A stretch of 64,000 bases of DNA from Streptomyces sp. NBC_00539 (lineage in GTDB: Bacteria > Actinomycetota > Actinomycetes > Streptomycetales > Streptomycetaceae). The stretch is from positions 3,786,501 to 3,850,500 of the forward strand of contig NZ_CP107811.1 of the NCBI RefSeq assembly GCF_036346105.1. The letters are read 5' to 3'. A model generated the notes under the pieces. The model was not told the origin of the DNA, searched no databases, and saw nothing but the letters and a program-made list of their open reading frames with translations. Shown in pieces: positions 43,276 to 59,191 of this stretch (positions are counted from its first letter, which is position 1; each line of letters starts with the position of its first letter). The position numbers were made by a program, and so were the translations under genes.

Positions 43276-46200
43276 ATGACGCGAGCCGAGCAGCCACCGG
43301 TCGTGACCGCCCCCGAGAACCCCACCTACGACGAAGCCCTAGCCGCCGACTCCCGAGAGCGAGCCGTCCGCGCCCTCCTGCGCACGCCCAGGCTGCGCCG
43401 GCTGTGGAGCGCCCAGTTGGTGAGCGGCATCGGCGATGCCCTCGCCCTGCTGACGCTGGTGTTGCTGACGCTGCAGGCGGCCGTCTCCGAGGAGGCCTTC
43501 GGCGGCGGCTACAGAGGTGCCGCCTTCGCCGTCGCGGCCGTCTTCGGGGTCCGGATCCTGGCCACGCTGCTCTTCGGCGCCGTGCTCCTCGGCCCGCTGT
43601 CCACCCTGACCGCCCCCGGCGGCAGGCTCGACCGCCGCTGGACGATGGTCGGCGCCGACGGGGTGCGCATAGCACTGTTCGTCGTCGCCCCGCTCTGGCT
43701 GGACTGGATCCCGGCGCAGGCCGTGACCGCGCTGCTGGCCACCGTCTTCGCCTCCGGTGCCGCCGAGCGGCTGTGGACGCTGGCCAAGGAGAGCGCCGCT
43801 CCCGCGCTGCTGCCCGCGCCGCCGCCGGAGGGTGCGACCGTACGGCCGCTTCCCGACCACCTGGACACCTTGCGCCGCCTGACGCTGCGTACGGGATTCG
43901 CCGCGATGCCCGCCGCCGCGGCCGTGCTGCTGGCCGCGAGCCTGATCGGGCGCGCGCTCGGCCTGGGCGTGGAGTGGTTCGCCGAGAACGAGGCGGCGCT
44001 GGGTTCCTACGTCGCCGCCGGCCTGTTCGCCGCGTCCGTCTCGCTGCTGTTGCCGCTGGTGCTGCCGGAGGTGAAGACCCCGCGTCCGAGGTCACCGCTG
44101 GAGGGGCTGCGCGCACCCAAGGCGGGGGACCGGCCGGAGAAGGGCCGTACCGGAGCCATCGCGCTGCTCGTGACGGCCTGCGCCGCCGTTGCCGCGGCGG
44201 TGTCCTGCGCCGCCTCCGTTGCGGTGCTGCACGCCTTCGACCTCGGCGGGGGCCCCTCCGCGTACGCGCTGCTGGTCCTCGCCCTGGTCGGCGGGACCGG
44301 CCTGGGCATTCGGGCCGCGCAGGCGGGCAAGGTGCTGCCGGGGCTGTCGCGGCGCCGGCTGCTGGCGCTCGCCATAGCGGTGGCGGGGCTCGCGCTGCTG
44401 CTGGCGGGGCTGGTGCCGGACACCGCGACCGTGCTGTTCCTGTCGCTGTCGGCCGGTCTGGCCGCGGGGGTGGCGGCCAGTACCGGGCACACCCTGCTCG
44501 ACCAGGAGACCGAGGAGTTCCGCCGGGCCCGGGTCACCGAGCACCTCCAGGCCGTCGTGCGGGTGGCCGTCGCCGTCGGGGCCGTCCTCGCCCCCGTCCT
44601 CGCCGCGGCCATCGGCCCGCACCGGGTGGGCGGCGGCCGGGTGGTGTTCGCCCATGGGGGCGCCTCGTTCACCCTGATGCTGGTGGGCGCGCTGCTGCTG
44701 CCGGTCGCGGCGCTGGTGCTGGCCAAGGCCGACGACCGCGGCGGTGTGCCGCTGCGCCGTGACCTTCGCGAGGCCCTGCGGGGCGGGGAGCCGCTACAGG
44801 CCCCGTCGGCGACCGGATTCTTCATCGCCCTGGAGGGCGGTGACGGCGCCGGCAAGTCCACGCAGGTGGAGGCGCTGGCCGACTGGATACGGGGCAAGGG
44901 CCACGAGGTCGTCGTGACGCGCGAGCCGGGAGCGACGCCGGTCGGCAAGCGACTGCGCTCCATCCTGCTGGACGTCTCCTCCGCCGGGCTGTCGAACCGC
45001 GCCGAGGCACTGCTGTACGCCGCCGACCGCGCGGAGCACGTGGACACGGTGGTCCGGCCCGCCCTGGAACGCGGCGCGGTGGTCATCACCGACCGCTACA
45101 TCGACTCTTCGGTGGCCTACCAGGGCGCCGGGCGCGACCTGTCCCCGACCGAGATCGCCCGCATCTCCCGCTGGGCCACGGGCGGACTGGTGCCGAACCT
45201 GACCGTGCTGCTCGACGTGTCGCCGGAGACGGCCAGGGAGCGGTTCACGGAGGCGCCGGACCGGCTGGAGTCGGAGCCGACGGAGTTCCACCAGCGGGTG
45301 CGGGCCGGGTTCCTGACACTGGCCGCGGCCGACCCCGGGCGCTACCTGGTGGTCGACGCCGGCCAGGAACCGGGCTCGGTGACCACGGTCGTACGGCACC
45401 GGCTGGACCGGATGCTCCCGCTCTCCGAGGCGGAGATCGCCGCCCGGGCCGAGGCCCGCCGGCTCGCCGAGGAAGAGGCCAGGCGCAAGGCCGAGGAAGA
45501 GGCGGCGCGCAAGGTGGAGGAGGCCAGACTGCGGGCGGAGGAGGAAGCCCGCCTGGCCCGCGAGGCCGAGGCCGCCCGGATCAAGGCCGAAGCCGAGGCC
45601 GCCCGCAAGGCGGAGGAGGAGCGGCTGCGCGCCGAGGAGGAGGCCCGCGCCCGGGCCGAGGCCGCGCGACTGCGTGAGGAGGCCGAGGAGCGGGCCCGCG
45701 CCGCGGAGGCGGAGCGGTTGCGCAAGCAGGCCGAGGAAGAGGCCCGGCTGCGGGCCGAGGCGGAGGAGCGGCGGCTGGAGAAGCAGCGGCGGGCGGAGGA
45801 AGCCCTGCTGCGAGCCGAGGAGGCGCGCCGGCTCGCGGAGCAGTCGGCTGCCGCGGCGGCCGCCGCTGCTGCTGCCCGGACGGCTGCGGGGCCGGGGCCG
45901 GAGGTGGCCCCCGCGGCCCCCGCGGCTCCCATGAACCCCACGGCCCCTGTGAATCCCGCGCCTCCGGCCGCCCCTGCGCCTCCGGCGGCCCCCGCGGCTC
46001 CCGCTGTTTCCATGCGCAAGGAGCCCGAGCAGCCGCGGTCCCGGCGGCCGCACCCGGACGATGCCGTCACGGTGGAAACCCCGGTGGTCAAGCGGGTCGT
46101 ACAGCCCGACGACGTGACGCAGACGGTGCCGGTCCCGAAGGTCGACCCGGCGGCGGAGACCTCCGTACTGCCGCCGGTCCGCCCCGGTGAACCGCGCCGG

Positions 46201-46485
46201 GACCGGCCCGCCGGGACCGGCCGTACCCCGTCGGCCTCGCGCCCCACCACCCGCCACTCGCAGGAGAGCCCGGCCGACCGGGTGCCTCCGGGCGTGTTCC
46301 GGGATGCCGGGAACGACGTGACGCGCGAGCTCCCGGCCCTGGACGAGGACGGCCGGCCGCGCCGGACCCGCTCGGAGTGGGCCGAGACGACCCCGCTGGA
46401 CGACCTGCCCACCTTGGCCGACGAACTGCTGGGCTCGCGCCCGGACGACGAGGGCGACGACGACCGCCCTCGCCGCCGCCGCTGA
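43276..46485 (+). CDS. tmk: MFS-like membrane protein fused to thymidylate kinase and a long coiled coil
   Basis: A 1069-residue fusion. Residues 1-490 form an MFS-like membrane domain of about 12 helices. Residues 514-715 are a full thymidylate kinase (dTMP to dTDP): P-loop GGDGAGKST at about 521-529, REPGATPVGKRLR, and the signature DRYIDSSVAYQGAGR. Residues 716-870 are an uninterrupted Glu/Arg/Ala coiled coil. The rest is Ala/Pro-rich then disordered and charged. E. coli Tmk is only 213 residues. If no other tmk exists, this gene is essential; the fusion is known in Streptomyces but its meaning is not. Followed by the delta-prime gene, a pairing conserved with tmk in many bacteria. Confidence 0.93.
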   Translation: MTRAEQPPVVTAPENPTYDEALAADSRERAVRALLRTPRLRRLWSAQLVSGIGDALALLTLVLLTLQAAVSEEAFGGGYRGAAFAVAAVFGVRILATLLFGAVLLGPLSTLTAPGGRLDRRWTMVGADGVRIALFVVAPLWLDWIPAQAVTALLATVFASGAAERLWTLAKESAAPALLPAPPPEGATVRPLPDHLDTLRRLTLRTGFAAMPAAAAVLLAASLIGRALGLGVEWFAENEAALGSYVAAGLFAASVSLLLPLVLPEVKTPRPRSPLEGLRAPKAGDRPEKGRTGAIALLVTACAAVAAAVSCAASVAVLHAFDLGGGPSAYALLVLALVGGTGLGIRAAQAGKVLPGLSRRRLLALAIAVAGLALLLAGLVPDTATVLFLSLSAGLAAGVAASTGHTLLDQETEEFRRARVTEHLQAVVRVAVAVGAVLAPVLAAAIGPHRVGGGRVVFAHGGASFTLMLVGALLLPVAALVLAKADDRGGVPLRRDLREALRGGEPLQAPSATGFFIALEGGDGAGKSTQVEALADWIRGKGHEVVVTREPGATPVGKRLRSILLDVSSAGLSNRAEALLYAADRAEHVDTVVRPALERGAVVITDRYIDSSVAYQGAGRDLSPTEIARISRWATGGLVPNLTVLLDVSPETARERFTEAPDRLESEPTEFHQRVRAGFLTLAAADPGRYLVVDAGQEPGSVTTVVRHRLDRMLPLSEAEIAARAEARRLAEEEARRKAEEEAARKVEEARLRAEEEARLAREAEAARIKAEAEAARKAEEERLRAEEEARARAEAARLREEAEERARAAEAERLRKQAEEEARLRAEAEERRLEKQRRAEEALLRAEEARRLAEQSAAAAAAAAAARTAAGPGPEVAPAAPAAPMNPTAPVNPAPPAAPAPPAAPAAPAVSMRKEPEQPRSRRPHPDDAVTVETPVVKRVVQPDDVTQTVPVPKVDPAAETSVLPPVRPGEPRRDRPAGTGRTPSASRPTTRHSQESPADRVPPGVFRDAGNDVTRELPALDEDGRPRRTRSEWAETTPLDDLPTLADELLGSRPDDEGDDDRPRRRR

Positions 46486-47989: not shown

Positions 47990-49543
47990 ATGGACACCAG
48001 TCGCCTGCTGCGTACGACCGGAACCGTGATCGCAGCTGCCGGGCTGCTGCTCTCCGGGTGCACCTCCGGTGGGCTGGGGGAGCCCCGGGCCTCCGCGTCC
48101 CCGGCCGCGCCGGGCACCGTACCGGCGGCGCTGCGTCCGTACTACGGGCAGAAGCTGAGCTGGCGCGAGTGCGGTGTGCCCGGCTTCCAGTGCTCCACGA
48201 TGAAGGTCCCCCTGGACTACGCGGACCCGGGAACCCCTGACTCGGCCCAGGCGATCGACGTGGCGGTGGCCCGCCGGGTGGCGACGGGTCCCGGCAAGCG
48301 GCTGGGCTCCCTGGTGGTCAACCCGGGCGGACCCGGCGGCTCGGGGATCGGGTACCTCCAGGCGTACGCGGGCATCGGCTACCCGGCGGCGGTCCGGGCC
48401 CAGTACGACATGGTGTCCTTCGACCCGCGCGGGGTGGACCGGAGCACTCCCGTCGAGTGCTTGAGCGGCCCGGCGATGGACAAGTACACCCAGGTGGACC
48501 AGACGCCGGACGACAAGGCCGAGCAGGCGCTGCTGGTGGCGGCGTTCAAGGAGTTCGCGGCGGGCTGCGAGGCGCACTCGCGGCGGATCCTGCCGCACGT
48601 CGGGACCGTCGACGCGGCGCGGGACATGGACATGCTGCGTGCGGTGCTGGGCGACGAGAAGCTGACGTACGTCGGGGCCTCGTACGGCACCTTCCTCGGC
48701 GCGACGTACGCGAACCTGTTCCCGGGCCGGGTGGGCCGGCTGGTCCTGGACGGTGCGATGGACCCCTCCCGGTCCGCGCTGGAGATGAACCGCGACCAGA
48801 CGGAGGGCTTCGAGACGGCCTTCCGCTCCTTCGCGAAGGACTGTGCGAAGCAGCCCGGCTGCCCGCTCGGCAAGGGTTCGCCGGACGCGGTGGCGCAGCG
48901 GCTGGAGGAGTTCTTCCGCAAGGTCGACGCCCAGCCCCTGCCCACGGGCGAAGCGGCCCGGCCGCTTGGCGAGTCCCTGGCGACGACCGGGGTGATCGCG
49001 GCACTCTACGACGAGAGCGCGTGGCCGCAGCTGCGCGAGGCACTCACGGCGGCGCTGGGCGGCGACGGCTCGGGCCTGCTGGCCCTCGCGGACAGTTACT
49101 ACGAGCGGGAGCCGGACGGCAAGTACGCGAACCTGATGTTCGCGAACGCCGCCGTGAACTGCCTGGACCAGCCCCCGGCCTTCGCCGGGCCGACGGCGGT
49201 CGAGGCCGCGCTGCCGTCCTTCGAGAAGGCCTCACCGGTCTTCGGGGCGGGGCTGGCCTGGGCCTCGCTGAACTGCGCCTACTGGCCGGTGAAGGCCACC
49301 GGCACGGCGGGCCGGCTGACGGCGAAGGGCGCCGCGCCGATCGTGGTCGTCGGCACCACCCGCGACCCGGCGACCCCGTACAAGTGGGCCCGGGGCCTCG
49401 CGGAGCAGCTCGACTCGGGCACCTTGCTGACCTACGACGGCGACGGCCACACGGCGTACGGGCGCGGCAGCGACTGCGTCGACACGGCGATCAACCGCTA
49501 CCTCCTGGAGGGCACCCCGCCACCCCCGGCCAAGCGCTGCTGA
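47990..49543 (+). CDS. Secreted lipoprotein alpha/beta hydrolase, tripeptidyl-aminopeptidase-like
   Basis: A 517-residue exported protein with lipobox LLLSGC (Cys at about 24). Alpha/beta-hydrolase of the S33/SlpD-SlpE type: GxSxG nucleophile in VGASYGTFLG (S231), VVGTTRDPATPY for the Asp and GDGHTAYGRGSDC for the His. NPGGPGGSGIGYL is the family oxyanion segment. These enzymes remove tripeptides from secreted mycelial proteins. The C-terminal TAP-like domain ends in CC-type sequence. Starts leaderless. Confidence 0.92.
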   Translation: MDTSRLLRTTGTVIAAAGLLLSGCTSGGLGEPRASASPAAPGTVPAALRPYYGQKLSWRECGVPGFQCSTMKVPLDYADPGTPDSAQAIDVAVARRVATGPGKRLGSLVVNPGGPGGSGIGYLQAYAGIGYPAAVRAQYDMVSFDPRGVDRSTPVECLSGPAMDKYTQVDQTPDDKAEQALLVAAFKEFAAGCEAHSRRILPHVGTVDAARDMDMLRAVLGDEKLTYVGASYGTFLGATYANLFPGRVGRLVLDGAMDPSRSALEMNRDQTEGFETAFRSFAKDCAKQPGCPLGKGSPDAVAQRLEEFFRKVDAQPLPTGEAARPLGESLATTGVIAALYDESAWPQLREALTAALGGDGSGLLALADSYYEREPDGKYANLMFANAAVNCLDQPPAFAGPTAVEAALPSFEKASPVFGAGLAWASLNCAYWPVKATGTAGRLTAKGAAPIVVVGTTRDPATPYKWARGLAEQLDSGTLLTYDGDGHTAYGRGSDCVDTAINRYLLEGTPPPPAKRC

Positions 49544-49658
49544 CCCCGGCCACCTCCGTGCGCACAACCCGGTTCGGGGCACCCCGTTCCACCCTGTAGA
49601 CTTGGCGCCGCTGCTGATGAGAGCACCTCTCCGGGGGAATTCTTGTCGAACCAGCGGT

Positions 49659-49732
49659 GCCGCCTTAGCTCAGTTGGCCAGAGCAACGCACTCGTAATGC
49701 GTAGGTCTCGGGTTCGAATCCCGAAGGCGGCT
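49659..49732 (+). tRNA. tRNA-Thr (anticodon CGT)
   Basis: 74 bases folding into a normal cloverleaf: acceptor GCCGCCT/AGGCGGC, D stem GCTC/GAGC, anticodon stem ACGCA/TGCGT with loop CTCGTAA (anticodon 49693-49695), T stem TCGGG/CCCGA with TTCGAAT. CCA is not encoded. Reads ACG codons. The prophage integrase gene starts reading toward its 3' end, so it is the attachment site. Confidence 0.97.
49693..49732. other. Putative prophage attL in the tRNA-Thr 3' end
   Basis: The integrase gene ends 45 bases past this tRNA, in the usual arrangement for tyrosine integrases that use the anticodon-to-3' part of a tRNA. The matching attR copy lies beyond the right edge, so the exact core cannot be seen. 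Confidence 0.6.
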
Positions 49733-49738
49733 CTGTAG

Positions 49739-49775
49739 AACCCTCAGGACTCACTCGCCGTGACCTGGGGGTTTT
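49739..49775. terminator. Hairpin between tRNA-Thr and int
   Basis: AACCCTCAGG / CCTGGGGGTT imperfect stem followed by TTTT, between the tRNA 3' end and the convergent integrase gene. Confidence 0.5.
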
Positions 49776-49776
49776 G

Positions 49777-51474
49777 CTATTTCCGGGCCAGACGGGGCCG
49801 GAACAAAATGATCTTCGCGCCCCCCTGCGTGCCCATTGCGTGCCCATCTGCGTGCCCGGCATCCGGTGTGACCTCGGCGTTCGAGGGTTCGGCTTCGACC
49901 TCTGCCTCGACCTCGGCGACGATCGGCTCGGTCTCGGGTTCGGTGGCGACCTGAACGGGGCGCCGCACAGTGCCTCTCGGGACCATGGCGGCCGTGGCCT
50001 CGGCGGCATCGCGCGCTGCCTTGGGCATGACGGACTGATAGATGTCCCGCGTGATCCGAGAGTCGGAGTGCCCGAGGGTCTCGGACACGATCTTGACGTC
50101 GACGCCGGCGGCGAGCATGAGCGAGGCGGCGACGTGCCGCAGGTCGTGCATACGGATCGGCGGCAGACCCGAGAGCTCGACGAGCCGCTCGAACTGATCG
50201 GTCAGCGTGCCGGGGTGCAGCCACTCTCCGTTCTCCTGCGTGAACATGCGACCGCTGTCGGTCCATGCCTCGCCCCATTCGAGACGTTCGGCCCCCTGCT
50301 TGATTCGGTGGGCTTCGAGCACCTCGGCGGTGTACTCGTCGAGCGAGATGATTCGCTCGCCGCTGTCGGTCTTGGGCGCCGACTCGACGACTTCCCAACC
50401 GTCCTGCACGAGCTGCGTCGCGACCGTGAGTTCGCCCGTTGCGACGTTGTAGTCGGACCACCGGACGCCGCACGCTTCGCCCCGCCGCAGGCCCCGGAAC
50501 GTGATCAGGTGGAACAGCGGCAACAGCCGCTGCTCGGTGTCGGCGAGGAAGTCCAGGAAGGCGCCCGCCTGCTCGGGAGTCCAGACCATGACCGAGCTCG
50601 GCTTGTCGCCGGTCCGTAGCCACTCGGCGATACGCGCGTCGGTCCACACCATCGCCTTCGGACGCTTGGCGGCGACGAGCTCGACGTGCTGCGCGGCGTT
50701 GAAGGTGATCGAGCCCCGGGCTATCGCGGTGTTGAGCGCGGCCCGCAGCGTGGCCCTGATGTGCTGCTGCGTCGAGGGCCCGGTGACCCGCCGGAAAGGG
50801 GCCATCGCGTCGATGGTGTCCTTCATCACCTTCCGGCGGGCGCGGTGCTCTGCTCCCTTCCACGGGGTCGCCTTGAGCTCGGCGAGCGCGGCCCGGCGGT
50901 CAGCGTTCGCCTCTGTGATCTCGATGTTCGTCTCGGCGATGCCCTCGAACATGGCGTCGAGGTGCGGCACCGTGAGGCGGTCGAGGCGGATGTGCCCGAT
51001 CCGGGGGCGCAAGTGGCACCGGATGTCGAGCTCGTACCGGTCGTGGCCGCTCTTGCGCAACGCCTTTTTGCCGGCGAGCCACAGGTCGAGCCACTCGGCG
51101 ACGGTCATGTGTTGCGTGAGCGACTGGCCGGTGCCGAACCGTCGCTTCGTCTCGTCGAGATCGGGGATGCCCTCCTTGCCGGACCCGACCAACGCGAGCA
51201 GGTCGCCGAGGCGGGCGCGGCCGTCCTGGTCGTCCGCGTCGGCGATGTTCAGCAGGGCGCGCACCTTGTCGAGGTCGCCCTGCGCCTCGGTCTGAGTGTC
51301 GTATCCGGCGCGGCGGAACAGGCGGCGGTCGCCTTCCAGGGTCGGCGGCAGTTCCTGCCGGATCGACCACACGCCGTGCGTGCGCTGCTTGAGCTTGGGG
51401 CAGGAACTGCCCAGCGGCTTACCGTCCTTGCGGCGGCAGTAGCAGCGCTTTGTCGTGGTTCCCTTCGCGGTCAC
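49777..51474 (-). CDS. int: Tyrosine site-specific integrase of the prophage
   Basis: A 565-residue tyrosine recombinase. The N-terminus has a Cys/His-containing SAM-like-AP2 stretch (KRCYCRRKDGKP). The catalytic domain has RGLRRGEACGVRW with the first Arg, HDLRHVAASLML with the His-x-x-Arg pair, GHSDSRITRDIY with the second His and nucleophile Tyr. Converges on the tRNA-Thr gene, the usual place for the attP-side integrase. Its start overlaps the repressor gene by 4 bases, so both are transcribed from the repressor promoter. Confidence 0.93.
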   Translation of the reverse strand: MTAKGTTTKRCYCRRKDGKPLGSSCPKLKQRTHGVWSIRQELPPTLEGDRRLFRRAGYDTQTEAQGDLDKVRALLNIADADDQDGRARLGDLLALVGSGKEGIPDLDETKRRFGTGQSLTQHMTVAEWLDLWLAGKKALRKSGHDRYELDIRCHLRPRIGHIRLDRLTVPHLDAMFEGIAETNIEITEANADRRAALAELKATPWKGAEHRARRKVMKDTIDAMAPFRRVTGPSTQQHIRATLRAALNTAIARGSITFNAAQHVELVAAKRPKAMVWTDARIAEWLRTGDKPSSVMVWTPEQAGAFLDFLADTEQRLLPLFHLITFRGLRRGEACGVRWSDYNVATGELTVATQLVQDGWEVVESAPKTDSGERIISLDEYTAEVLEAHRIKQGAERLEWGEAWTDSGRMFTQENGEWLHPGTLTDQFERLVELSGLPPIRMHDLRHVAASLMLAAGVDVKIVSETLGHSDSRITRDIYQSVMPKAARDAAEATAAMVPRGTVRRPVQVATEPETEPIVAEVEAEVEAEPSNAEVTPDAGHADGHAMGTQGGAKIILFRPRLARK

Positions 51475-52169
51475 TCAATACCTCTCGGGTGGGTCTGGTC
51501 GGGGTTGTCGAGCAGGTCGAGCCGCTTCAAGTCCTCGGCCAACTCGGTTGGCAGCTCGGGGACGGTGAGGCTCGCGCGGTGCATGTCGTTGACGACCTGC
51601 GCGAGCTCGTCGAGGCGGTCGACGTACTCGGGCTGCGCTGACGGATCGAGCGCGGCGCGCAAGCGGGCCTTGTGGGCCCTTTCGCGGCGCCGCGCGAGCT
51701 CGGGGTACAGCGAGACCGGATAGGCCGCTGTGGCCCATGCGGCGGCCCACGTCTGCCCGGTACCGGCGATCGGCCGGGTGTCGGGGACGTACCGCCCATC
51801 GAGGGGGCCGTCGAGCGTCGGCGTCGCCTCGCCGGTCATCCACTGCCACACCGTGTACGGGTCGCGAGGGTCCGCGCTCGGGACGGTGGGCAGGCTCCCC
51901 TCGGTCCCGAGCGGGACCATGAGGAGCAACGGGGGCGTGGCGAGGGCGAGGCCGAAGACGAGCAGCTCCTCGGCGGTCACCTGACGGCGCTTCTTGGCGT
52001 TGCTGTCGCCGCGGCCGGTCTCGATGGTGACGATCACGGCGTACGAGAGATCAGGGCGGCCGAGGCGCGCGCACTCGGCGGCCAGGTCATGCCTGTTCAT
52101 CCCGAGTCGCTCGCGATGTCGGCGGATCTGCGCGGCGATGACATCGCCCGCTGCCTGGTGACTGTGCAT
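51471..52169 (-). CDS. XRE-family prophage repressor-like regulator
   Basis: A 232-residue protein with an N-terminal helix-turn-helix (residues 10-60, ending with VTAEELLVFGLALATPPLLL). The rest is a helical region without a recognised domain. The start ATG 52169 is leaderless (-10 TAGCTT, 6 bases upstream) and the -10 lies inside a 14-bp palindrome, so it is likely autoregulated, as for many phage repressors. It is coupled to int. Confidence 0.75.
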   Translation of the reverse strand: MHSHQAAGDVIAAQIRRHRERLGMNRHDLAAECARLGRPDLSYAVIVTIETGRGDSNAKKRRQVTAEELLVFGLALATPPLLLMVPLGTEGSLPTVPSADPRDPYTVWQWMTGEATPTLDGPLDGRYVPDTRPIAGTGQTWAAAWATAAYPVSLYPELARRRERAHKARLRAALDPSAQPEYVDRLDELAQVVNDMHRASLTVPELPTELAEDLKRLDLLDNPDQTHPRGIE

Positions 52170-52173
52170 ATCG

Positions 52174-52200
52174 CAAAGCTAGCTTTGTTGGTTGCAAAGC
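52174..52200. promoter_or_regulatory. Operator-like palindrome overlapping the repressor -10
   Basis: CAAAGCTAGCTTTG at 52174-52187 is a perfect palindrome; GCAAAGC recurs at 52194-52200, 21 bases from the first copy. The -10 TAGCTT (minus strand, 52181-52176) lies in the palindrome and ends 6 bases before ATG 52169. Confidence 0.65.
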
Positions 52201-52282
52201 GCCACCCTTGATCGTAAGTTGCTGATCTAGGCATCGCTCGGCATCACCGGGCCGATGTGCACACCGATGTCACTGGGGGCAG

Positions 52283-52522
52283 ATGATGAGTACGACCGAT
52301 CAGGGGATGACACACGACGAGCTGATGACACTTCCCGTCGCGATCCCGCTTGAGACTGCCAACAGGGCTTTGCGCCTTGGCCGGACCACCGGCTACCACC
52401 TCGCCCGGACTGGGCGATACCCCGTTCGCATTCTGCGCCACGGGAGGGCGTACAAGGTTTCGAGGTACGACCTGCACCGGCATCTCGGCGCCTCGGCCGA
52501 GCAGCCTCCCGCCAACGAGTAG
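52283..52522 (+). CDS. Excisionase-like small DNA-binding protein
   Basis: A 79-residue protein with a MerR/excisionase-type winged helix (residues 22-65: LETANRALRLGRTTGYHLAR, then RILRHGRAYKVSRYDLHRHL). Divergent from the repressor-int pair, in the right place for a recombination directionality factor. GGGGGC lies upstream; ATG 52283 or 52286. Confidence 0.7.
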   Translation: MMSTTDQGMTHDELMTLPVAIPLETANRALRLGRTTGYHLARTGRYPVRILRHGRAYKVSRYDLHRHLGASAEQPPANE

Positions 52523-52584
52523 GGGGCACGCCGCCGCCCGCCGTATCCCGAAGGAGATCGGCGGGCGGCGGGGTTTCTCTTGGG

Positions 52585-53028
52585 CTACGCCCAACCGTGC
52601 TCGGTGAGCGTCTCGGCGCCCTTGAGGTAGCCGTACAGTCCCGCGGCGGGGTACTCAATCAGGTCCTCGGGCAGGGCGTCGACAGGGAACCAACGAAGCG
52701 CGAGGCACTTCTCGGGTTCGCGGTTCTCGGGCTTGCCGTCCCACTCGGTCGCCAGGAAGAACAGCCCGATCCGCTCGACTGTGTCGCTCTGCTTGTGGTG
52801 CACGGTGTGCACGAGGCGCAGGTGCTCGGGGTCGACCTCGACGCCGGTTTCTTCGCGCAGCTCGCGGGCTGCGCCGACGGTGAGGGGCTCGGCTTGGTCG
52901 AGCTTGCCGGAGGGGGCGTGCCATCGTCCGTGGCCGTACGGTCCTCCGCGCTGCGAGAGCAGGATCATGTCGCCGTCGCGCAGGATCACATGCGTGTCGA
53001 TGACGGGTGTTGCGGGTGTGGGGCTCAT
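52585..53028 (-). CDS. Nudix hydrolase, last gene of the prophage cargo operon
   Basis: A 147-residue Nudix protein with a perfect box: G41-x5-E47-x7-R55E56-x2-E59E60-x-G62. No CoA or ADP-ribose signature. MutT-like size suggests it clears or produces a nucleotide. Its start overlaps the kinase gene by 4 bases (ATGA). Downstream there is only the excisionase-like gene on the other strand. With the radical SAM, kinase and glycosylase-fold partners it probably acts on a nucleotide; inference. Confidence 0.85.
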   Translation of the reverse strand: MSPTPATPVIDTHVILRDGDMILLSQRGGPYGHGRWHAPSGKLDQAEPLTVGAARELREETGVEVDPEHLRLVHTVHHKQSDTVERIGLFFLATEWDGKPENREPEKCLALRWFPVDALPEDLIEYPAAGLYGYLKGAETLTEHGWA

Positions 53029-53681
53029 GGGTTCACCGTGTGGTTGTTGGGCTGCTGGGGCTGTCTCGGGACGCTACTCCCGTGCGGGGGTAGCGCGTCG
53101 GCGATTCGGCGCGCTACGTCCCTTGGGGCGGTTGTGGTGGAGTCGAGTACGAGCACCTGTACGCCCATGCCCATGAGGGTCTGTGTCGCCTCGGCGTAGA
53201 GGTCGACCTCGCGGCTCGGGGCGTCGGGGTCGTGGTGGAAGCGGTGGCGGACGCCGCGCTTGGCAAGGCGGGCGGCGATCTCGCCCGGGTCGGCGGTGAG
53301 GATCACGGCGAGGTCGGGCAGCATGATCTCGCGGTTCAGGGCGAGCACGAACTGTTCGTCGACGCCGTCGAGACGTTGCAGGACGAGCGACGAGGCGAGA
53401 TAGCGGTCGCTGATGACGGTGAAGCCGGCTTCCCGCATCGGCCGCAGTTCGACCTCGACGTGCTCGTATCGATTGGCGGCGACGAGGCAGGCGAGGGCGT
53501 GTCCGGTGAGGAATGCGGCACCTGCTCGGGTGAACTGCCCGAGGGCGCTTCCGCTCGGCTCGGCGGTGCGGAAGACGAGCCGGCCGTCGTTGCGCAGCAG
53601 GTTGTCGAGTTCTGCGAGGGTAGTGGACTTTCCGACGGCGCTCGGGCCGTCGAGGGTGACGAACAGGCCAGGGTCGGTCAT
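53025..53681 (-). CDS. Thymidylate-kinase-like P-loop kinase, prophage cargo
   Basis: A 218-residue protein of the dTMP-kinase/deoxynucleoside kinase fold: P-loop DGPSAVGKSTT (G12-T20), then SDRYLASSLVLQRLDG in place of the Tmk signature DRY, and ITADPGEIAARLAKRG in the lid region. Length matches Tmk. As the chromosome already has a fused tmk at 43276, this copy may phosphorylate a different (modified) nucleotide. Coupled by ATGA overlaps on both sides. Confidence 0.85.
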   Translation of the reverse strand: MTDPGLFVTLDGPSAVGKSTTLAELDNLLRNDGRLVFRTAEPSGSALGQFTRAGAAFLTGHALACLVAANRYEHVEVELRPMREAGFTVISDRYLASSLVLQRLDGVDEQFVLALNREIMLPDLAVILTADPGEIAARLAKRGVRHRFHHDPDAPSREVDLYAEATQTLMGMGVQVLVLDSTTTAPRDVARRIADALPPHGSSVPRQPQQPNNHTVNP

Positions 53682-55180
53682 GCGGCGATCCCCATCCGGT
53701 TACGTTCGTGCTGTTCGCGGGTGAGGTCGGCGAGGGTGGCGCGCAGCTTGGGGAGGGGGACCGTGCCGAACTGGATACCCACGGTGAAATTGAACTCGTC
53801 GCGCTGCCTCATGGACTCGTTGGCGCCGTCCGCGGTGAGGTCGACGTCGGAGTATGCGAGCAGGGCGTCGGGGTCGTGTCCGGCCTTGGTGAGGGTGTTC
53901 CACACGGGCGTACCGGGGTAGGGCCGGAACTCGAACACGGACGCCCGGAAACGAGCGTCTGCGTGCCGGTCGGCGATGGTCCACAGGTTGTGGATATGCC
54001 GCACGGTCGCGTCGAGGTCGGACTGCTCTTCCCCGGGGTAGCCGAGGATGAAATAGCCCTTCACGCCGATGCCGCGTTCGAGCAGGCGGCCGGCGACGCG
54101 CTCGGTCATCTCGGCCGTAATCCGCTTGTCCATGCCGGCGAGTACGCGGTCGCTGCCCGACTCGATTCCGAGGGCTACCTCGTGCAGTCCGTTGGTCTTG
54201 AGCGTGTCGAGCATGGCGTCGTCGAGGCGGTCGAGGACGTTGATCCGGCCCGTGGCGTCCCACACGTACCGCTCGCCGATCTTGTGCCGGGTGAATGCTT
54301 CCATCTGCGGGACGATCACCCGCTTGGCGCCGAGGAACAGGTCGTCGACGAACCGGTATGCCGTGGTCCCGTAGAGGTCGTGCAGGTGGTCGAGTTCCGC
54401 GACGATGCCCTCGGGCGCACGAGTTCGGATCTTGACGTCGGGGTTCGCGGAGACCGCGGCGCCGCAGAACGTGCAGTCGTAGGGGCACCCGCGCGCGCCG
54501 ACGATGTTCGCCTCGCGCCGGCCGTCGTCGGCGAGGTAAGGGTCTTGCGGCAGGAACGCGCGGTTCACCAGGGGCAGAGCGTCGATGTCCGGGCTCAACC
54601 ACTTTGCGGTGTCGCCGTGGGCGATACCGGCGGCGTGCGTCCCGAGGATGCGGTCGCGCCACATCACTCCGGGCAGCTCGGCGCGGCGGCGCTCGTCGGC
54701 GAGGAGCGTGGCGACGCGGGTCTCGCCCTCGCCGATCACCAGGGCGCGAAGGTTGCGCATGCGGGGGTCGTCGAGGATGCGGTCGGGCATGGCCTTGGCG
54801 TGGTGACCCCCGACCATGAGGGCGATACCGTCGTCGATCTCGGCGGCGATCCGGGCCGACATTTCGTAGGTCGGGGCGAGCAGGTTCATGCCTACCCATC
54901 GGGGGCGTACCTCGTTGATCAGGCGGGCGGTCGCGTCGATGCCGAGGCCGTGTGCCTCTGCGTCCAACACACCGACGTTGAACCCTCCGACTTCCTGCGC
55001 GTAGGTAGCGATGTAGGCCATGCCGAGCACGGGCAGGGTGTAGTCGTTCGTCCGGGGCCGCAGGCCGTAGTCGCGTAGCGGGGCGTTGACGAACAGGGCG
55101 TCGAGGATGCGGTTCAGGTCGGCGCCGGCGATCAGATCAGGGGTGGTGCGGTGTTCCTCCTGCGCGGGTAACGCGGGCAT
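53678..55180 (-). CDS. B12-binding radical SAM enzyme, prophage cargo
   Basis: A 500-residue class B-type radical SAM protein. Residues 25-170 look like a cobalamin-binding Rossmann domain (GLRPRTNDYTLPVLGMAYIA, then MVGGHHAKAMPD). The cluster motif C232-x3-C236-x2-C239 lies in GCPYDCTFCGAA. The C-terminus has a distinct 100-residue tail. Such enzymes often methylate or rearrange unactivated carbons or make C-C bonds in natural products. Codon 4 is TTA (55169-55171), so bldA tRNA may gate translation. Overlaps the glycosylase-fold gene by 44 bases; no other start fits. Confidence 0.87.
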   Translation of the reverse strand: MPALPAQEEHRTTPDLIAGADLNRILDALFVNAPLRDYGLRPRTNDYTLPVLGMAYIATYAQEVGGFNVGVLDAEAHGLGIDATARLINEVRPRWVGMNLLAPTYEMSARIAAEIDDGIALMVGGHHAKAMPDRILDDPRMRNLRALVIGEGETRVATLLADERRRAELPGVMWRDRILGTHAAGIAHGDTAKWLSPDIDALPLVNRAFLPQDPYLADDGRREANIVGARGCPYDCTFCGAAVSANPDVKIRTRAPEGIVAELDHLHDLYGTTAYRFVDDLFLGAKRVIVPQMEAFTRHKIGERYVWDATGRINVLDRLDDAMLDTLKTNGLHEVALGIESGSDRVLAGMDKRITAEMTERVAGRLLERGIGVKGYFILGYPGEEQSDLDATVRHIHNLWTIADRHADARFRASVFEFRPYPGTPVWNTLTKAGHDPDALLAYSDVDLTADGANESMRQRDEFNFTVGIQFGTVPLPKLRATLADLTREQHERNRMGIAA

Positions 55181-55976
55181 GGCTCCCCCAAGTGAGAGTG
55201 AACAGAGTCAGGGCGTGCAGTTGGCTGCGGGTGGGCGCCCATTGGCGCCACAGGGCCTCGAAGTGCTTTTCGTCCCCGGGCAGGGTGAGGCCGGGTGCGG
55301 CGCGACCGGCCCACGTGCGCACGGCGAGGTCGCCGTGCGGGTAAACGGAGTGGTCCCCGGTGAAGTCGGCCGCGGCTGCGGCGGCGGTCCACGGGCCGAT
55401 GTACGTGACCTCGCACAGTTCCTTGACGAGGCTTTCCGGGTCGAGGGTGGCCCAGTGCTCGCCGCGGTCGAGGTAGGCGGTAGCGGCGGAGCGCAGCCCC
55501 TTCGCGTTGAACTTGGCGCCGATCGCGGTGAACCCCTCGTCGCTCACTTCGAGCACGACCTCGGGAGCGGGAGTAAGGGGGAGCGGACCGGCGGGCGTGT
55601 CGAAGGCGCGTCCGTACGCGGAGTAGAACGCCCGGTGTTTCTTGCGTGCCTGCGGTGCGCTGATCACCTGACGGAGGAGTGCGGTCGTGATCGCGTCCCA
55701 CAACGACGGGTTGGTGAGCCGGGCGACGGTTCCCAGGGACACCAACTCGTCGAGCAGCAGGGTTCCCTCGGCCGCAGTGGGCAGCTCGACCGCGGACGTG
55801 TAGGCGACGGGCGGCTGATCGGCCGCGGCAGGGTCGAGAGCGCGCAGCAGCAGGTGCTCGCGCTCGCTCTCCCAGTGGGCGAGCCATGCGGCGCCCTGAA
55901 ACTCGACAACGCGTACGGGCTCGTCGTCCGGGGTGGTGTGCCACCCGGGGTGTTCCGTGATGATCGTGGTACTCAT
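55137..55976 (-). CDS. HhH-GPD DNA-glycosylase-fold protein, prophage cargo
   Basis: A 279-residue protein. The C-terminal half resembles the HhH-GPD base-excision domain: YIGPWTAAAAAADF near residues 193-206 aligns with GIGRWTANYF of AlkA, and PHGDLAVRTW places D216 at the position of its catalytic Asp; the typical W.PWRS helix is replaced by RQWAPTRSQLH. The N-terminal half is unlike AlkA. Such folds also occur in nucleoside-modifying enzymes (queuosine N-glycosylase and phage aGPT-type proteins). No cluster cysteines. Overlaps both neighbours. Confidence 0.6.
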   Translation of the reverse strand: MSTTIITEHPGWHTTPDDEPVRVVEFQGAAWLAHWESEREHLLLRALDPAAADQPPVAYTSAVELPTAAEGTLLLDELVSLGTVARLTNPSLWDAITTALLRQVISAPQARKKHRAFYSAYGRAFDTPAGPLPLTPAPEVVLEVSDEGFTAIGAKFNAKGLRSAATAYLDRGEHWATLDPESLVKELCEVTYIGPWTAAAAAADFTGDHSVYPHGDLAVRTWAGRAAPGLTLPGDEKHFEALWRQWAPTRSQLHALTLFTLTWGSHARVTRAGGTPHHP

Positions 55977-56422
55977 GCGCTCAATTCCCGTCGCTGGTGC
56001 TGTGCTTGAACTTCACAGTTTGAGGACTGCACGGGGGTGAGCGAGAGGAATCGGACGGGCCGCACTCGCCACTCGGCGCATGTTCCGTCCCGCAAGATGA
56101 TCGTGAAGCCCGTCTCTTCGCCGCGGTACAGGGCGGCGACGGCTTGAAGCCATCCGCTTCCGTCGACCCACTCAAGAGCGCGCGCTATCTCCTGGCGTGT
56201 CAGGGTGAAGACGTGGGCGCCCCGAATGTCGATGCGCAGGGCTCGAACTGCGGCCCGGGGGTTGGCGACCACCTGCACCGGGGCGCGCACCTCCACCGGT
56301 CCGCCCTTGGGGTGATACCGCACGCGTTCGATCACCGCACCGGTTCGAACCCCGTGCTCGTAGTCGGCTCCGACCTGCAACCCTGGACCCAAGGTGACGG
56401 TGACGCGGTCTGTTACCTGCAT
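55973..56422 (-). CDS. Unknown protein, first gene of the prophage cargo operon
   Basis: A 149-residue protein with no recognised domain. Predominantly beta-strand-like sequence (VTVTLGPGLQVGADYEHG near the start), an ALEWVDGSGWLQ helix in the middle and a Glu/Arg-rich end. GGGAGG lies 7 bases before the ATG. The stop overlaps the HhH gene start (ATGA). It is the promoter-proximal gene of the five-gene operon. Confidence 0.6.
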   Translation of the reverse strand: MQVTDRVTVTLGPGLQVGADYEHGVRTGAVIERVRYHPKGGPVEVRAPVQVVANPRAAVRALRIDIRGAHVFTLTRQEIARALEWVDGSGWLQAVAALYRGEETGFTIILRDGTCAEWRVRPVRFLSLTPVQSSNCEVQAQHQRRELSA

Positions 56423-56503
56423 TCATACCTCCCTGCCACGGCAACTTGGTTGCTCCCTACCGGACCAGCATTGGAACGGCGGACAAGGGGCAACCCCGGG
56501 CGG

Positions 56504-56537
56504 AACTCTGCCAACGGGTCAGGCTGTGGGCAGAGTT
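56504..56537. promoter_or_regulatory. Inverted repeat upstream of the cargo operon
   Basis: AACTCTGCC (56504-56512) and GGCAGAGTT (56529-56537), 16 bases apart; about 82 bases before the operon start. Confidence 0.4.
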
Positions 56538-56597
56538 AGGCCACGTCAGGAGCGGTATGGCCAGCGGACCGACCTGCCGAAGTGACGCAGTGAGACG

Positions 56598-56607
56598 GTA
56601 GCGCTAC
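56598..56607. promoter_or_regulatory. 10-bp palindrome upstream of the cargo operon
   Basis: GTAGCGCTAC, perfect palindrome. Confidence 0.3.
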
Positions 56608-56627
56608 GCTCAATGGGGCTGCAAGTG

Positions 56628-56640
56628 TGGACCGGTACAA
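56628..56640 (-). promoter_or_regulatory. 13-bp motif, copy 1 (cargo operon side)
   Basis: TGGACCGGTACAA on the plus strand, i.e. TTGTACCGGTCCA reading toward the cargo operon. Identical to 57871-57883 in the direction of transcription. Confidence 0.55.
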
Positions 56641-56662
56641 ACGTGCAGACTGGCATATGCAA

Positions 56663-56691
56663 AACCCCCCGCCCCGGGTGGGCGAGGGGTT
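56663..56691 (-). terminator. Terminator of the DUF397 gene
   Basis: On the minus strand AACCCC-CGCCC ... GGGCG-GGGGTT hairpin followed by TTTTGC, 32 bases past the stop. Confidence 0.75.
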
Positions 56692-56722
56692 GAGCTAGCG
56701 GCGTTGGAGGCGCGGAAGGGGG

Positions 56723-56938
56723 CTAGTTGACGAAGTGGTCGAACTCGCCGGCCTTCACGCCCGCGATGAACGCTGCGAGCTTCTCGGGCGACGTGGTGAT
56801 GATGCTTGCCGGGTCGTCACTCTCGCAGAGCATGATCGCGCCCTCGCTCTTGGCGACGTACAGGCACTGCTCGCCGCCGCCCCCGGAGAAGCTCGACTTC
56901 TGCCACTGGAATTCGCTGTTCATCCCTGAATTTCTCAC
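56723..56938 (-). CDS. DUF397 domain protein
   Basis: A 71-residue protein of the actinobacterial DUF397 family: QWQKSSFSGGGGEQCLYVA and the FDHFV end. Family members pair with WhiJ-like HTH proteins and modulate their repressor activity. The GTG start overlaps the upstream WhiJ-like gene by 4 bases; ATG 56923 would give a 66-residue form. Confidence 0.88.
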   Translation of the reverse strand: MRNSGMNSEFQWQKSSFSGGGGEQCLYVAKSEGAIMLCESDDPASIITTSPEKLAAFIAGVKAGEFDHFVN

Positions 56939-57789
56939 AGTTCTCTTGCGATGTGGTGAATGAAACTTCGCGACTCGTCGGGGTCGAGCGAGGTCTGCTC
57001 GGCGAACTTGAGCAGGGCTCGATACCGGTCGAGGTCTGCGGCTGTGTCCAGGAAGCGACCGCCGAAAGGTGTGTCGATGTGAACGGTGTCGAGCTGCGGA
57101 ACCGCTCCAGTCGCGTACATCACGGTCTGAGTCACTTCGATGAAGTCATCCGCCGTGAAGGGGATCACCCGGAGCGTGATCCACTCCTGCTCGGACACGT
57201 GCAGCAGGTGTTCGAGTTGATCCCGGGCCACCTTCCGGCCGCCGACTCGCATCCGCAGTGCGGCCTCGTGCACGATGGCGTCGAACCGGGTTGGGGCGTC
57301 GCGCTCGAAGATCGCGCGGCGCTTCATCCGGTGCTCGACTCGTGCGTCAACCTCTTCCGTCGGTACCTGCGGGATGACCCCCGCGAACAAGGCCCGTGCG
57401 TAGTCCTCGGTCTGCAAGACGCCGGGAAACGTCATGGGCTGGAGGCATTGCAGGCCCGTCGCGTGGTGTTCGAGTTCGGCGATGTCGAGGAACCCGGGGG
57501 CCAGGATGCCGCGGTAATCGTCCCACCAGTGCGTTCCCCGCCGCTCTACGGCAATGGCGCACAAGGCAGCGAGTAGGGCCTCGTCGTCGGATTGGTAGAA
57601 CGTGAACAGGCGGCGAATGCGTTCGTCGCTGATCCCGAGGCGACCGGCTTCGATGTTGCTGATCCTCGCCGCATCGGTGGAGAGCAAGCCGCCGGCGTCT
57701 CGTGCGGTCATGCCGGCGCGCTCGCGCAGCTTTCGCAGCTCAGAGCCCAAACGGATCTGGCGGGCGGTCGGATTGTCCCTCGGCGGCAT
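56935..57789 (-). CDS. WhiJ-like XRE regulator (DUF5753 type)
   Basis: A 284-residue protein with an N-terminal helix-turn-helix (ELRKLRERAGMTARDAGGLL, SNIEAGRLGISDERI) and the C-terminal DUF5753 domain (WWDDYRG, QTEDYARALF, EQEWITLRVIPF). Family members such as WhiJ act with DUF397 partners in developmental repression. Ribosome-binding site GGGA. Divergent from the ATPase gene, with palindromic DNA between. Confidence 0.87.
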   Translation of the reverse strand: MPPRDNPTARQIRLGSELRKLRERAGMTARDAGGLLSTDAARISNIEAGRLGISDERIRRLFTFYQSDDEALLAALCAIAVERRGTHWWDDYRGILAPGFLDIAELEHHATGLQCLQPMTFPGVLQTEDYARALFAGVIPQVPTEEVDARVEHRMKRRAIFERDAPTRFDAIVHEAALRMRVGGRKVARDQLEHLLHVSEQEWITLRVIPFTADDFIEVTQTVMYATGAVPQLDTVHIDTPFGGRFLDTAADLDRYRALLKFAEQTSLDPDESRSFIHHIAREL

Positions 57790-57861
57790 GTGTCCCTTCC
57801 CCTTGTCCTACCCGAGTTTGCCGGTTGCGGCGTCATGGGTCCACCCAGAAGGGTTCTTGGG

Positions 57862-57877
57862 GGTACAGGGTTGTACC
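57862..57877. promoter_or_regulatory. Palindrome in the WhiJ-like/ATPase divergent region
   Basis: GGTACA and TGTACC arms with a 4-base spacer, overlapping the candidate -35 at 57871. Confidence 0.45.
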
Positions 57878-57883
57878 GGTCCA
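57871..57883 (+). promoter_or_regulatory. 13-bp motif, copy 2, with promoter of the ATPase gene
   Basis: TTGTACCGGTCCA. TTGTAC may be the -35, paired after 18 bases with TATGGT (57895-57900) as -10. The reverse complement is the motif at 56628. Confidence 0.5.
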
Positions 57884-58037
57884 ACCTTTTACCTTATGGT
57901 CCTGGCAGCACCGCGTCGCACGTAGCTAGCCCGCGAAGTGCAGCCGCTGACACGCGTCTTGACGCGTCGTCGCCCGGGAGCGGCCATCGCCACGCGCACA
58001 AAGCGACGCACGCTCGACCGCGTTGGGAGACGATAAA

Positions 58038-58472
58038 ATGACCATGAGTGCCTTACCGCCTGCACCGCCCCCTGAGCCTGGCGTGAGCTACTGCATGACG
58101 GCGCCACGCGCCGCGACCACACCCAAAGTCGTACGTGACTGGCTCGTGCTGCTGCTGGTCACCTTCGGGCACGACGAGATCGCCGATCGGGCGAAGCTCT
58201 GCGCGTCCGAGGCGGTCACGAACGCCTACCAGCACACGCGCTCGCCCCGGATCACGGTCGAGGTGTCGCTCGGCTCGACCGCCGTAACCGTGTCCGTGGA
58301 TGACGACCGCCCGGGATGGCTTCCGAGCCCCCGCCCGCCGGCCCCGTGGCGCGACGAGCACGGTCGAGGGTTGACCTTGATTCGTGCACACGCCGCCGAG
58401 TTGCGCGCCGTTCCGAACGATGGACTCGGCAAGCGGGTGCAGTTCACCCTCGCGTACGGGGAGGCGGCATGA
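58038..58472 (+). CDS. RsbW-like ATP-binding (anti-sigma-type) protein
   Basis: A 144-residue HATPase_c protein: CASEAVTNAYQHTRS carries the N-box (EAxTNAxxH), VDDDRPGWLPSP the G1 box and GRGLTLIRAHA the G2. RsbW-type kinases of this group accompany WhiJ/DUF397 genes. Codon 6 is TTA (58053-58055). GGGAG lies 8 bases before ATG 58038; the next gene overlaps it by 4 bases. Confidence 0.85.
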   Translation: MTMSALPPAPPPEPGVSYCMTAPRAATTPKVVRDWLVLLLVTFGHDEIADRAKLCASEAVTNAYQHTRSPRITVEVSLGSTAVTVSVDDDRPGWLPSPRPPAPWRDEHGRGLTLIRAHAAELRAVPNDGLGKRVQFTLAYGEAA

Positions 58473-58804
58473 CCATGCTCGACATTGACCCGCTGTACGT
58501 CTTGATCGGTATCGGAGCGTTGACAGTTGCCGGTCTCGGCCTCGTCGCCGTGTGTGCTTCCCTGCCGAGCGCTCGCCGGGGGATCACGCCCCCGCCGGCC
58601 GAGGCGGGCGAGAGCTACCGCTGTTACTGCTGGGCAAGTCCCGTGACCGTGCGCGTGGTCGAGACGCCCACGGGCAGGCACCAGCGCGGGCGGCATCGCC
58701 GGCCCTCGTACGTCACAGACTCCGCCGTCCGCCCGGATGTCGCCTCCCATGCGGGGGCGGGCGGCGGTATATGGGGGGCACCTCCCGTGCACGCGGTCGC
58801 ATAG
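58469..58804 (+). CDS. Small single-pass membrane protein
   Basis: A 111-residue protein with one N-terminal membrane helix (LYVLIGIGALTVAGLGLVAVC) and a basic, His/Gly-rich tail with two Cys (CYC) near 52-54. No family recognised. ATG 58469 overlaps the ATPase stop. Confidence 0.55.
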   Translation: MTMLDIDPLYVLIGIGALTVAGLGLVAVCASLPSARRGITPPPAEAGESYRCYCWASPVTVRVVETPTGRHQRGRHRRPSYVTDSAVRPDVASHAGAGGGIWGAPPVHAVA

Positions 58805-58828
58805 ACCCCCTGCGCGGTGACCCTGGAG

Positions 58829-58865
58829 CAGGGGCCCTCGACGAGTGCACCGTCGAGGGCCCCTG
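58829..58865. terminator. Strong hairpin between the ATPase and late operons
   Basis: CAGGGGCCCTCGACG / CGTCGAGGGCCCCTG, a perfect 15-bp stem with a 7-base loop. Confidence 0.7.
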
Positions 58866-58890
58866 CCTCCCCTCACCCAAAACGACCAAA

Positions 58891-58931
58891 GCACCCCCCG
58901 CCACCGGCACGAGGCCGGTGGCGGGGGGTGC
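58891..58931. terminator. Very strong bidirectional terminator
   Basis: Perfect 18-bp stem (58891-58908 with 58914-58931) and a 5-base loop, in the middle of convergent genes. Probably ends the phage late operon. Confidence 0.8.
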
Positions 58932-58936
58932 TGCGT

Positions 58937-59191
58937 TCAGTGGGCGGCGGTCTGCCAGAGGGTGAGGGCGAGACCCACCACGGCCACCAGGGCGAGGACG
59001 CTCGGGAGCGGCCAGCGGGTCTTTTCGAGGGCGTCGAGCCGGGCCTCGTGGTCGGCGAGCTGCCGGTCGACTTGGTCGGACCGCTGAACGAGCAGGGCGA
59101 GCGATCCGTCGATGCGCGCGAATCCCGCCTCGACGACGCCGCGCAGTCTTTCGAGTTCGAGGGCGACGTCGGACGGCGAGGGGTCGGTCAC
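58937..59191 (-). CDS. Coiled-coil/membrane protein, holin-like
   Basis: An 84-residue protein: coiled-coil region (residues 8-55: LELERLRGVVEAGFARIDGS then DQVDRQLADHEARLDALEK) and one C-terminal membrane helix (SVLALVAVVGLALTLW). In lysis cassettes such proteins act as holins or spanin-like partners. GTG 59191 overlaps the upstream stop by 4 bases. Last gene of the late operon. Confidence 0.6.
   Translation of the reverse strand: MTDPSPSDVALELERLRGVVEAGFARIDGSLALLVQRSDQVDRQLADHEARLDALEKTRWPLPSVLALVAVVGLALTLWQTAAH

Follow-up and report, generated by a model that had tools for sequence, protein, structure and literature searches.

The 64,000-nucleotide stretch of Streptomyces sp. NBC_00539 analysed here (the window; contig NZ_CP107811.1, positions 3,786,501 to 3,850,500) carries within a prophage five minus-strand open reading frames (ORFs) at 56422–52585, which overlap successively by 4, 44, 4 and 4 bases in the window's ORF list (Table 1). 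A first-pass annotation had described them as one operon of prophage cargo encoding a protein of no assigned function, a protein with a HhH-glycosylase fold, a B12-binding radical S-adenosylmethionine (radical-SAM) enzyme, a Tmk-like kinase and a Nudix hydrolase. The layout and the last four assignments were borne out, but the conserved mobile unit is a cassette of four genes (glycosylase, radical SAM, kinase and hydrolase), from which the first gene of the run, encoding 149 amino acids (aa), is excluded.

Conservation of the cassette was assessed across 73 scanned loci, 59 of which had any radical-SAM match, with the glycosylase gene only in the other 14. Ten of the 59, being split, truncated or at a contig end, were not counted (L004, L066, L067, L072, L075, L076, L082, L128, L129 and L130; among these, a Nudix gene was present in L004, L072 and L128, MazG in L066 and CYTH in L129), and the 49 one-piece radical-SAM loci fell into 42 clusters at 95% identity. 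Outside the scan were second retrievals of records or genomes already covered (L006, L007, L056, L064, L144–L147, L153–L155, L158 and L159), short initial retrievals of genomes that were later retrieved anew, the four AlkA-like controls L052–L055, two prophage stretches of the strain's own genome (L084 and L085) and later side looks (L166–L170). A glycosylase gene adjoined the radical-SAM gene in 40 of the 42 clusters, the exceptions being one rearranged locus (L057) and one at a contig end (L127), and a kinase gene adjoined it in 37, all of which (37/37) also encoded one of three hydrolases (Nudix, MazG or CYTH). The proteins also appear to have been inherited together, with Mantel correlations of 0.84 for glycosylase and radical SAM (40 loci), 0.84 for radical SAM and kinase (37 loci) and 0.69 for glycosylase and kinase (37 loci), each above all 2000 permutations. 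The radical-SAM protein was the most conserved (mean column identity 77%, versus 73% for Nudix, 64% for the kinase and 59% for the glycosylase; mean p-distance 0.325, versus 0.507 for the glycosylase and 0.48 for the kinase). The five-gene unit originally proposed therefore stands for four genes, which co-occur in phage SF3, on plasmids and across these clusters, but not for the 149-aa gene, which was found by tblastn only in close relatives of the window prophage, is missing from SF3 and has FeoA as its sole Pfam match (E 0.051, under that model's cut-off); its restriction to one prophage family places it outside the conserved unit.

The 500-aa protein matches the Pfam Radical_SAM (E 1.5e-15) and B12-binding (E 3.3e-13) domains, and the CxxxCxxC motif is present in 49/49 one-piece copies. 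With a B12-binding domain and this motif together, it is, as judged from its sequence, a predicted B12-dependent radical-SAM enzyme. Its best NCBIfam match, at 118 bits (cut-off 750), is the enzyme ApyD of ribosomally synthesised and post-translationally modified peptide (RiPP) pathways. Three PDB profiles matched at E<=0.001, OxsB not being among them, and no PADLOC family matched at E<=0.1.

The adjoining kinase matches Pfam Thymidylate_kin (E 2e-22) and passes the model for deoxythymidine monophosphate (dTMP) kinase, TIGR00041, by about 1.5 bits (84.8 bits, cut-off 83.25). Walker A is kept in 48/48 copies. The host dTMP kinase has the motif DRYIDSSVAYQ, in which the Ala-Tyr, present also in a PDB-matched Tmk that we take to be that of S. 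aureus, is replaced by Val followed by Leu, Val or Met in 47/48 cassette kinases, the one other copy being unread at this place. The gatekeeper Tyr of dTMP kinase favours deoxyribose, and its loss suggests that the cassette enzyme may take a sugar other than deoxyribose. The host enzyme itself lies within a 1069-aa protein encoded on the plus strand at 43276–46485 (kinase part, residues 514–701), approximately 6.5 kb from the cassette kinase gene, and because the host owns this activity a cassette copy is not needed for dTMP; a role for the cassette kinase in dTMP-kinase supply is therefore unlikely. PADLOC matches of the cassette kinase were weak (PDC-M51B, 3e-8; VakA, 1.7e-6), and a Viperin/VakA system was rejected, given the weak VakA match and a radical-SAM gene that matches no PADLOC model.

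The gene behind the kinase is interchangeable. Among the 42 clusters this place is taken by a Nudix gene in 24, a MazG-like gene in nine, a CYTH gene in seven and none of these in two, and never by two together. The Nudix protein of the window matches Pfam Nudix at E 1.5e-19 (PADLOC PDC-S07, 5.4e-9), and the strict Nudix box is found in 30 of the 34 Nudix copies, that of the window included. Two CYTH members match Pfam at E 5.7e-21 and 3.6e-15, and on plasmid NZ_CP134608 the fourth gene is annotated by NCBI as 'MazG-like family protein'. On the radical-SAM tree the fourth-gene labels, 'none' included, require at least seven changes, and well-supported branches force at least two for MazG; the labels are clustered nonetheless (shuffled mean, 16.5 changes). 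Matches to these families are few in the strain's own 7.5-Mb genome (28 Nudix, 2 MazG and 1 CYTH), and chance is therefore an unlikely explanation for the repeated filling of one place by them. Nudix, MazG and CYTH proteins have unrelated folds and have action on triphosphates in common, and this exchange among unrelated triphosphate-hydrolase families is the most telling result in favour of a role in nucleotide chemistry.

The 279-aa protein had no Pfam, NCBIfam or PHROG match at E<=0.1, and kinship to thymine-hypermodification or queuosine families, which the first-pass annotation had raised for its HhH fold, found no sign there; neither these families nor AlkA were among the 50 VIA rows listed, which excludes neither. 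Instead, its structure model shows the OGG1 fold across residues 1–269, and all 11 PDB sequence-profile matches at E<=1 are named 3-methyladenine DNA glycosylase/glycosidase. The column of Asp216, which follows the HhH motif and aligns with the Asp of AlkA 2jhj, holds Asp in 66/66 proteins by alignment, although the strict surrounding pattern fits 32/66. Trp196 lies within a G-P-W-T-A hairpin and is invariant in 22 aligned rows, and the catalytic Lys of the bifunctional OGG1 glycosylase/lyase is absent. We take both residues to occupy AlkA active-site places, Trp196 presumably standing where AlkA has its Trp and OGG1 its Lys. By its modelled fold and Asp, the protein is a predicted glycosylase of the AlkA/OGG1 HhH-GPD superfamily. 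The likeness to AlkA and OGG1 takes in the fold over nearly the whole length, the catalytic Asp and a Trp presumably placed as in AlkA, whereas the lack of a Pfam or NCBIfam match of its own and its constant gene partners set it apart. Genes of the EEP family (AP-endonuclease superfamily) adjoin the glycosylase gene in L077, L078 and L079 and lie approximately 3 kb upstream in L059; the two that were scanned matched Pfam EEP at E 2.3e-7 (L059) and 9.4e-5, under the cut-off (L079). Such neighbours suit base excision by the glycosylase-like protein.

The cassette is sporadically distributed and mobile. The radical-SAM gene had a match at E<=1e-100 in 16 of 393 sampled Streptomyces genomes, the window's own counted, and the family profile one at E<=1e-60 in 15 of 394 sampled genomes of the class. 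It is also present in phage SF3 and nine virus-collection loci, and 13 plasmid records match the protein at E<=1e-40, one of them partially. By locus origin, at least 13 of the 42 clusters lie on phages, predicted prophages or plasmids (the window, L002, L003, L009, L148, L150, L151, L152, L161, L069, L162, L163 and L140). The four-gene order of the window is identical in SF3 and also occurs on plasmids, so that the cassette, first taken for prophage cargo, is not confined to prophages; it is found on contigs of several megabases as well (for example G516:C1, 6.9 Mb), where it may lie within prophages or outside them. At E<=1e-3 the radical-SAM protein matched 173 plasmid records, and four distant ones were examined among the matches listed. 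One of these, the Citrobacter plasmid locus L167 (NZ_CP134684.1, 50246–61100), carries four radical-SAM genes with GH3-type and acetyltransferase genes in one run, which is perhaps an undescribed pathway and does not resemble the Photorhabdus thm genes considered below; another, from Azospirillum, is taken up with the counter-evidence, and the remaining two had no kinase, Nudix or MazG gene annotated beside the radical-SAM gene.

In the window, the setting of the cassette is a prophage of a Streptomyces-type chromosome, as had been recognised at the outset. Terminase, portal, major head, tape-measure and endolysin genes are present along with the integrase, and a 40-base piece of the 3' end of the tRNA-Thr gene recurs at window coordinate 87259, 37.6 kb off and beyond the window. 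A further copy of this 3' end at 103008, also beyond the window, suggests another element in tandem behind the prophage. In both the window and SF3 the cassette is placed between the integrase and lysis genes. Locus L005, which has the glycosylase gene without a B12 radical-SAM gene, has the same prophage backbone as the window, and the cargo slot may thus be being swapped. Within 49000–59000 of the window the tRNA was the sole Rfam match at the gathering threshold, with no riboswitch; a sigma-70 promoter scan returned none and the terminator count did not exceed that of shuffled sequences, both of which are uninformative.

Table 1. Position of the cassette genes and surrounding features in window coordinates.
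Feature	Coordinates	Strand	Remarks
149-aa protein, first gene of the run, no assigned function	55973..56422	-	Specific to the prophage family; probably outside the cassette
AlkA/OGG1-type HhH-GPD DNA-glycosylase-like protein, 279 aa	55137..55976	-	N-terminal beta domain and helical glycosylase domain
B12-binding-domain radical-SAM enzyme, 500 aa	53678..55180	-	CxxxCxxC motif
Thymidylate-kinase-like P-loop kinase, 218 aa	53025..53681	-	Walker A kept, gatekeeper Tyr absent
Nudix hydrolase, 147 aa	52585..53028	-	Full Nudix box; MazG-like or CYTH gene instead in relatives
XRE-type regulator with DUF5753	56935..57789	-	Upstream of the cassette on the same strand; candidate regulator
DUF397 protein	56723..56938	-	Pairs with the XRE regulator; Pfam
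Excisionase/HTH_17-like protein	52283..52522	+	Weak match; converges on the operon end, near the integrase
Tyrosine integrase of the prophage	49777..51474	-	Pfam
tRNA-Thr (CGT), attachment site	49659..49733	+	3' part recurs beyond the window

Families, folds, key residues, gene order, mobility, co-inheritance and exchange of the fourth gene were all observed. Our proposed reading of them, in which substrate, product, toxicity and target are putative, is that the four genes form a mobile accessory cassette which would generate an altered nucleotide and limit the damage from it; we assign this reading a probability of approximately 0.5. The B12-binding radical-SAM enzyme would alter a nucleotide, probably a pyrimidine and thymidine-like; the Tmk-like kinase would phosphorylate the altered monophosphate, and the nucleoside diphosphate kinase of the host would make the triphosphate. 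Entering DNA, the altered triphosphate could then harm replication in a competitor cell or a superinfecting phage, while in the carrier the Nudix protein (MazG-like or CYTH in relatives) would destroy the triphosphate and the AlkA/OGG1-like protein would cut the altered base out of the DNA of the carrier itself. A maker, an activator, a triphosphate hydrolase and a base-excision fold side by side are what would be expected of an altered-nucleotide pathway that shields its carrier both in the nucleotide pool and in DNA. A scheme of making, phosphorylating, sanitising and removing a nucleotide had been put forward from the window alone; it is now partly supported, fitting as it does the exchange of Nudix for unrelated triphosphate-hydrolase families. 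Two outcomes named beforehand as refuting it, an absence of co-occurrence of the genes elsewhere and a model of the HhH protein unlike a glycosylase, were not observed.

Several observations weigh against this reading. Three of the 42 clusters (L117, L123 and L124) combine glycosylase and radical SAM without an adjacent intact kinase, which is absent or broken, although L123 has another kinase copy 2 kb away. Conversely, the glycosylase gene occurs without any radical-SAM match in the 14 glycosylase-only loci; the contigs of L077 and L156 stop within approximately 0.4 kb downstream, and only partial copies are present in L081 and L083. Lacking a B12 radical-SAM gene, some have RiPP-type genes beside the glycosylase gene, namely a graspetide ATP-grasp and methyltransferase (L005) or a lasso-type cyclase (L074), and others have different radical-SAM genes (L079 and L157) or what we read as a precursor-like ORF (L156), so that the glycosylase may be a broader component or a leftover. 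Pfam support for MazG is weak (E 8.8e-5; a second member, at 6.2e-3, does not reach the cut-off). As for CYTH, its gene could be a mere neighbour, since it lies on the other strand, facing the kinase gene, was found in one taxonomic family only and is named adenylate cyclase by NCBIfam. No exporter genes were evident in the annotated plasmid neighbourhoods, apart from two ABC-transporter genes in L163. On an Azospirillum ramasamyi plasmid (L168; NZ_CP029835.1, 58243–69478), a trio of radical SAM (29% identity), kinase and NUDIX lies near glycosyltransferase genes, a warning that this combination of enzymes may serve purposes other than nucleotide chemistry. Finally, the likeness to the systems closest in plan, thmABC and oxsAB, is one of design, and any sequence kinship to ThmA or OxsB would be conjectural.

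The same enzymes could also make up an anti-phage defence, in which the altered nucleotide is built preferentially into the DNA of a fast-replicating invader, the glycosylase is the effector, leaving abasic sites and breaks, and the hydrolase spares the host pool. We consider this possible but rather unlikely. Carriage by phages, predicted prophages and plasmids would agree with it, as would the retention of the glycosylase beside the radical SAM (one of the two exceptions is at a contig end) and the EEP genes directly beside or upstream of the glycosylase gene, and defence by a glycosylase has a precedent in Brig1, going by the available part of that report (PMC11078745). However, such a defence requires selectivity for invader DNA, which has no support here, no PADLOC match is strong, and EEP genes accompany the glycosylase gene in few loci, among which a single one has the complete cassette. 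A vivid form of this idea, a mobile chemical immune system in which a counterfeit thymidine nucleotide, supplied by the radical-SAM enzyme and a dedicated kinase, is taken up by the replicating DNA of an invader and a dedicated glycosylase cuts the base out, shredding that DNA, is similarly tentative; the interchangeable hydrolase would set the dose, and phages and plasmids would carry the cassette to exclude rivals.

It is improbable that the whole set serves to clear or reuse a damaged nucleotide, with no poison being made. Nudix, MazG and AlkA are classic sanitation and repair families, and a Tmk could re-phosphorylate salvaged dTMP analogues, but the most conserved of the four is the radical-SAM protein, whose occurrence across Streptomyces genomes is patchy, unlike that of core repair genes, and we know of no B12 radical-SAM enzyme of sanitation. 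The modification of a RiPP by the radical-SAM enzyme, with the other genes as accessories, is highly improbable: ApyD is the best NCBIfam match and graspetide- and lasso-type genes stand at some glycosylase loci, yet the ApyD score is far from its cut-off, and a kinase and triphosphate hydrolases do not fit. Moreover, no small-ORF family was common to more than three loci among 303 ORFs from 73 flanking regions (approximately 0.7–0.9 kb on one strand, with no downstream region for CYTH loci), and thus no RiPP precursor is evident nearby, farther ones not being excluded. Hypermodification of a phage's own genome against restriction is likewise highly improbable; phage carriage would suit it, and kinases and radical-SAM enzymes do occur in thymine hypermodification, but a position between integrase and lysis genes argues against it, as does the occurrence on plasmids and multi-megabase contigs.

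If the cassette does make an altered nucleotide and contain its harm, it would represent a class of weapon or defence carried by phages that has so far gone unrecognised, with attack and defence both in play. Actinobacterial temperate phages and plasmids would then carry compact and complete nucleotide-chemistry cassettes with their own protection, outside the usual biosynthetic clusters, and glycosylases of the AlkA/OGG1 type would gain a new job as dedicated self-protection or effector enzymes. Such a cassette would also offer a short gene list for seeking new thymidine-like compounds and would tie phage cargo to nucleoside chemistry in a testable way; what the fourth gene does can be tested directly, given that members of three hydrolase families replace one another there.

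The four genes have been sequenced before, in a paper whose available part does not treat them as a set. In Streptomyces phage SF3 (NC_028952.1, L009), gp350–gp380, corresponding to ORF 35–38, are the same four genes in the same order, with an integrase gene adjoining. According to the available part of the SF3 genome paper, its table lists ORF 35 as HhH-GPD, ORF 37 as TMPK and ORF 38 as Nudix, and leaves ORF 36, the radical-SAM gene, without a function (PMC5336643). The same source calls SF3 virulent and does not use the word 'integrase' in its main text, whereas the RefSeq record annotates a site-specific integrase beside the cassette. Apart from this paper, which names three of the four genes singly, no account of the four-gene set was found in the literature searched, most subscription journals lying outside it.

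Known systems offer parallels in design. In Photorhabdus, the products of thmA–C (radical-SAM enzyme, nucleoside kinase and nucleoside triphosphatase) make 4'-thiothymidine, which enters DNA, and the triphosphatase by itself confers resistance (PMC12691670). As in the cassette, a radical SAM, a kinase and a nucleoside triphosphate hydrolase stand side by side; the genes co-cluster with differing neighbours across species, and the expression medium for thmABC was supplied with vitamin B12 (PMC12691670). In contrast, as far as the available part of that source goes, ThmB is a distant AbmG-type nucleoside kinase where the cassette has a Tmk-like one, thmABC has no glycosylase gene, and the thm genes come from Enterobacterales and Vibrio where the cassette comes from actinobacteria, phages and plasmids. 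The oxsA/oxsB pair of a Bacillus megaterium plasmid is similar in being plasmid-borne and in joining a B12 radical-SAM enzyme acting on deoxynucleotides (OxsB, with dAMP, dADP and dATP as precursors of oxetanocin) to a phosphohydrolase (PMC7074753). OxsA is, however, an HD phosphohydrolase and not a Nudix, MazG-like or CYTH protein, and the available part of the report mentions no kinase or glycosylase (PMC7074753). Brig1 shares with the cassette, on the defensive interpretation, a DNA glycosylase directed against phage, but resembles family-4 uracil DNA glycosylase, a different fold, and no nucleotide-making partners are mentioned in the available part of its description (PMC11078745). For AlkA, the available part of one report describes action of the E. 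coli enzyme on 5-formyluracil and an influence of alkA on the mutagenesis that exogenous fdU, a nucleoside, brings about (PMC7051996). By analogy with these systems, the cassette may best be placed among minimal nucleoside-antibiotic clusters, as a variant that differs in its enzyme families, its additional glycosylase, the exchange of its hydrolases and its occurrence on phages and plasmids.

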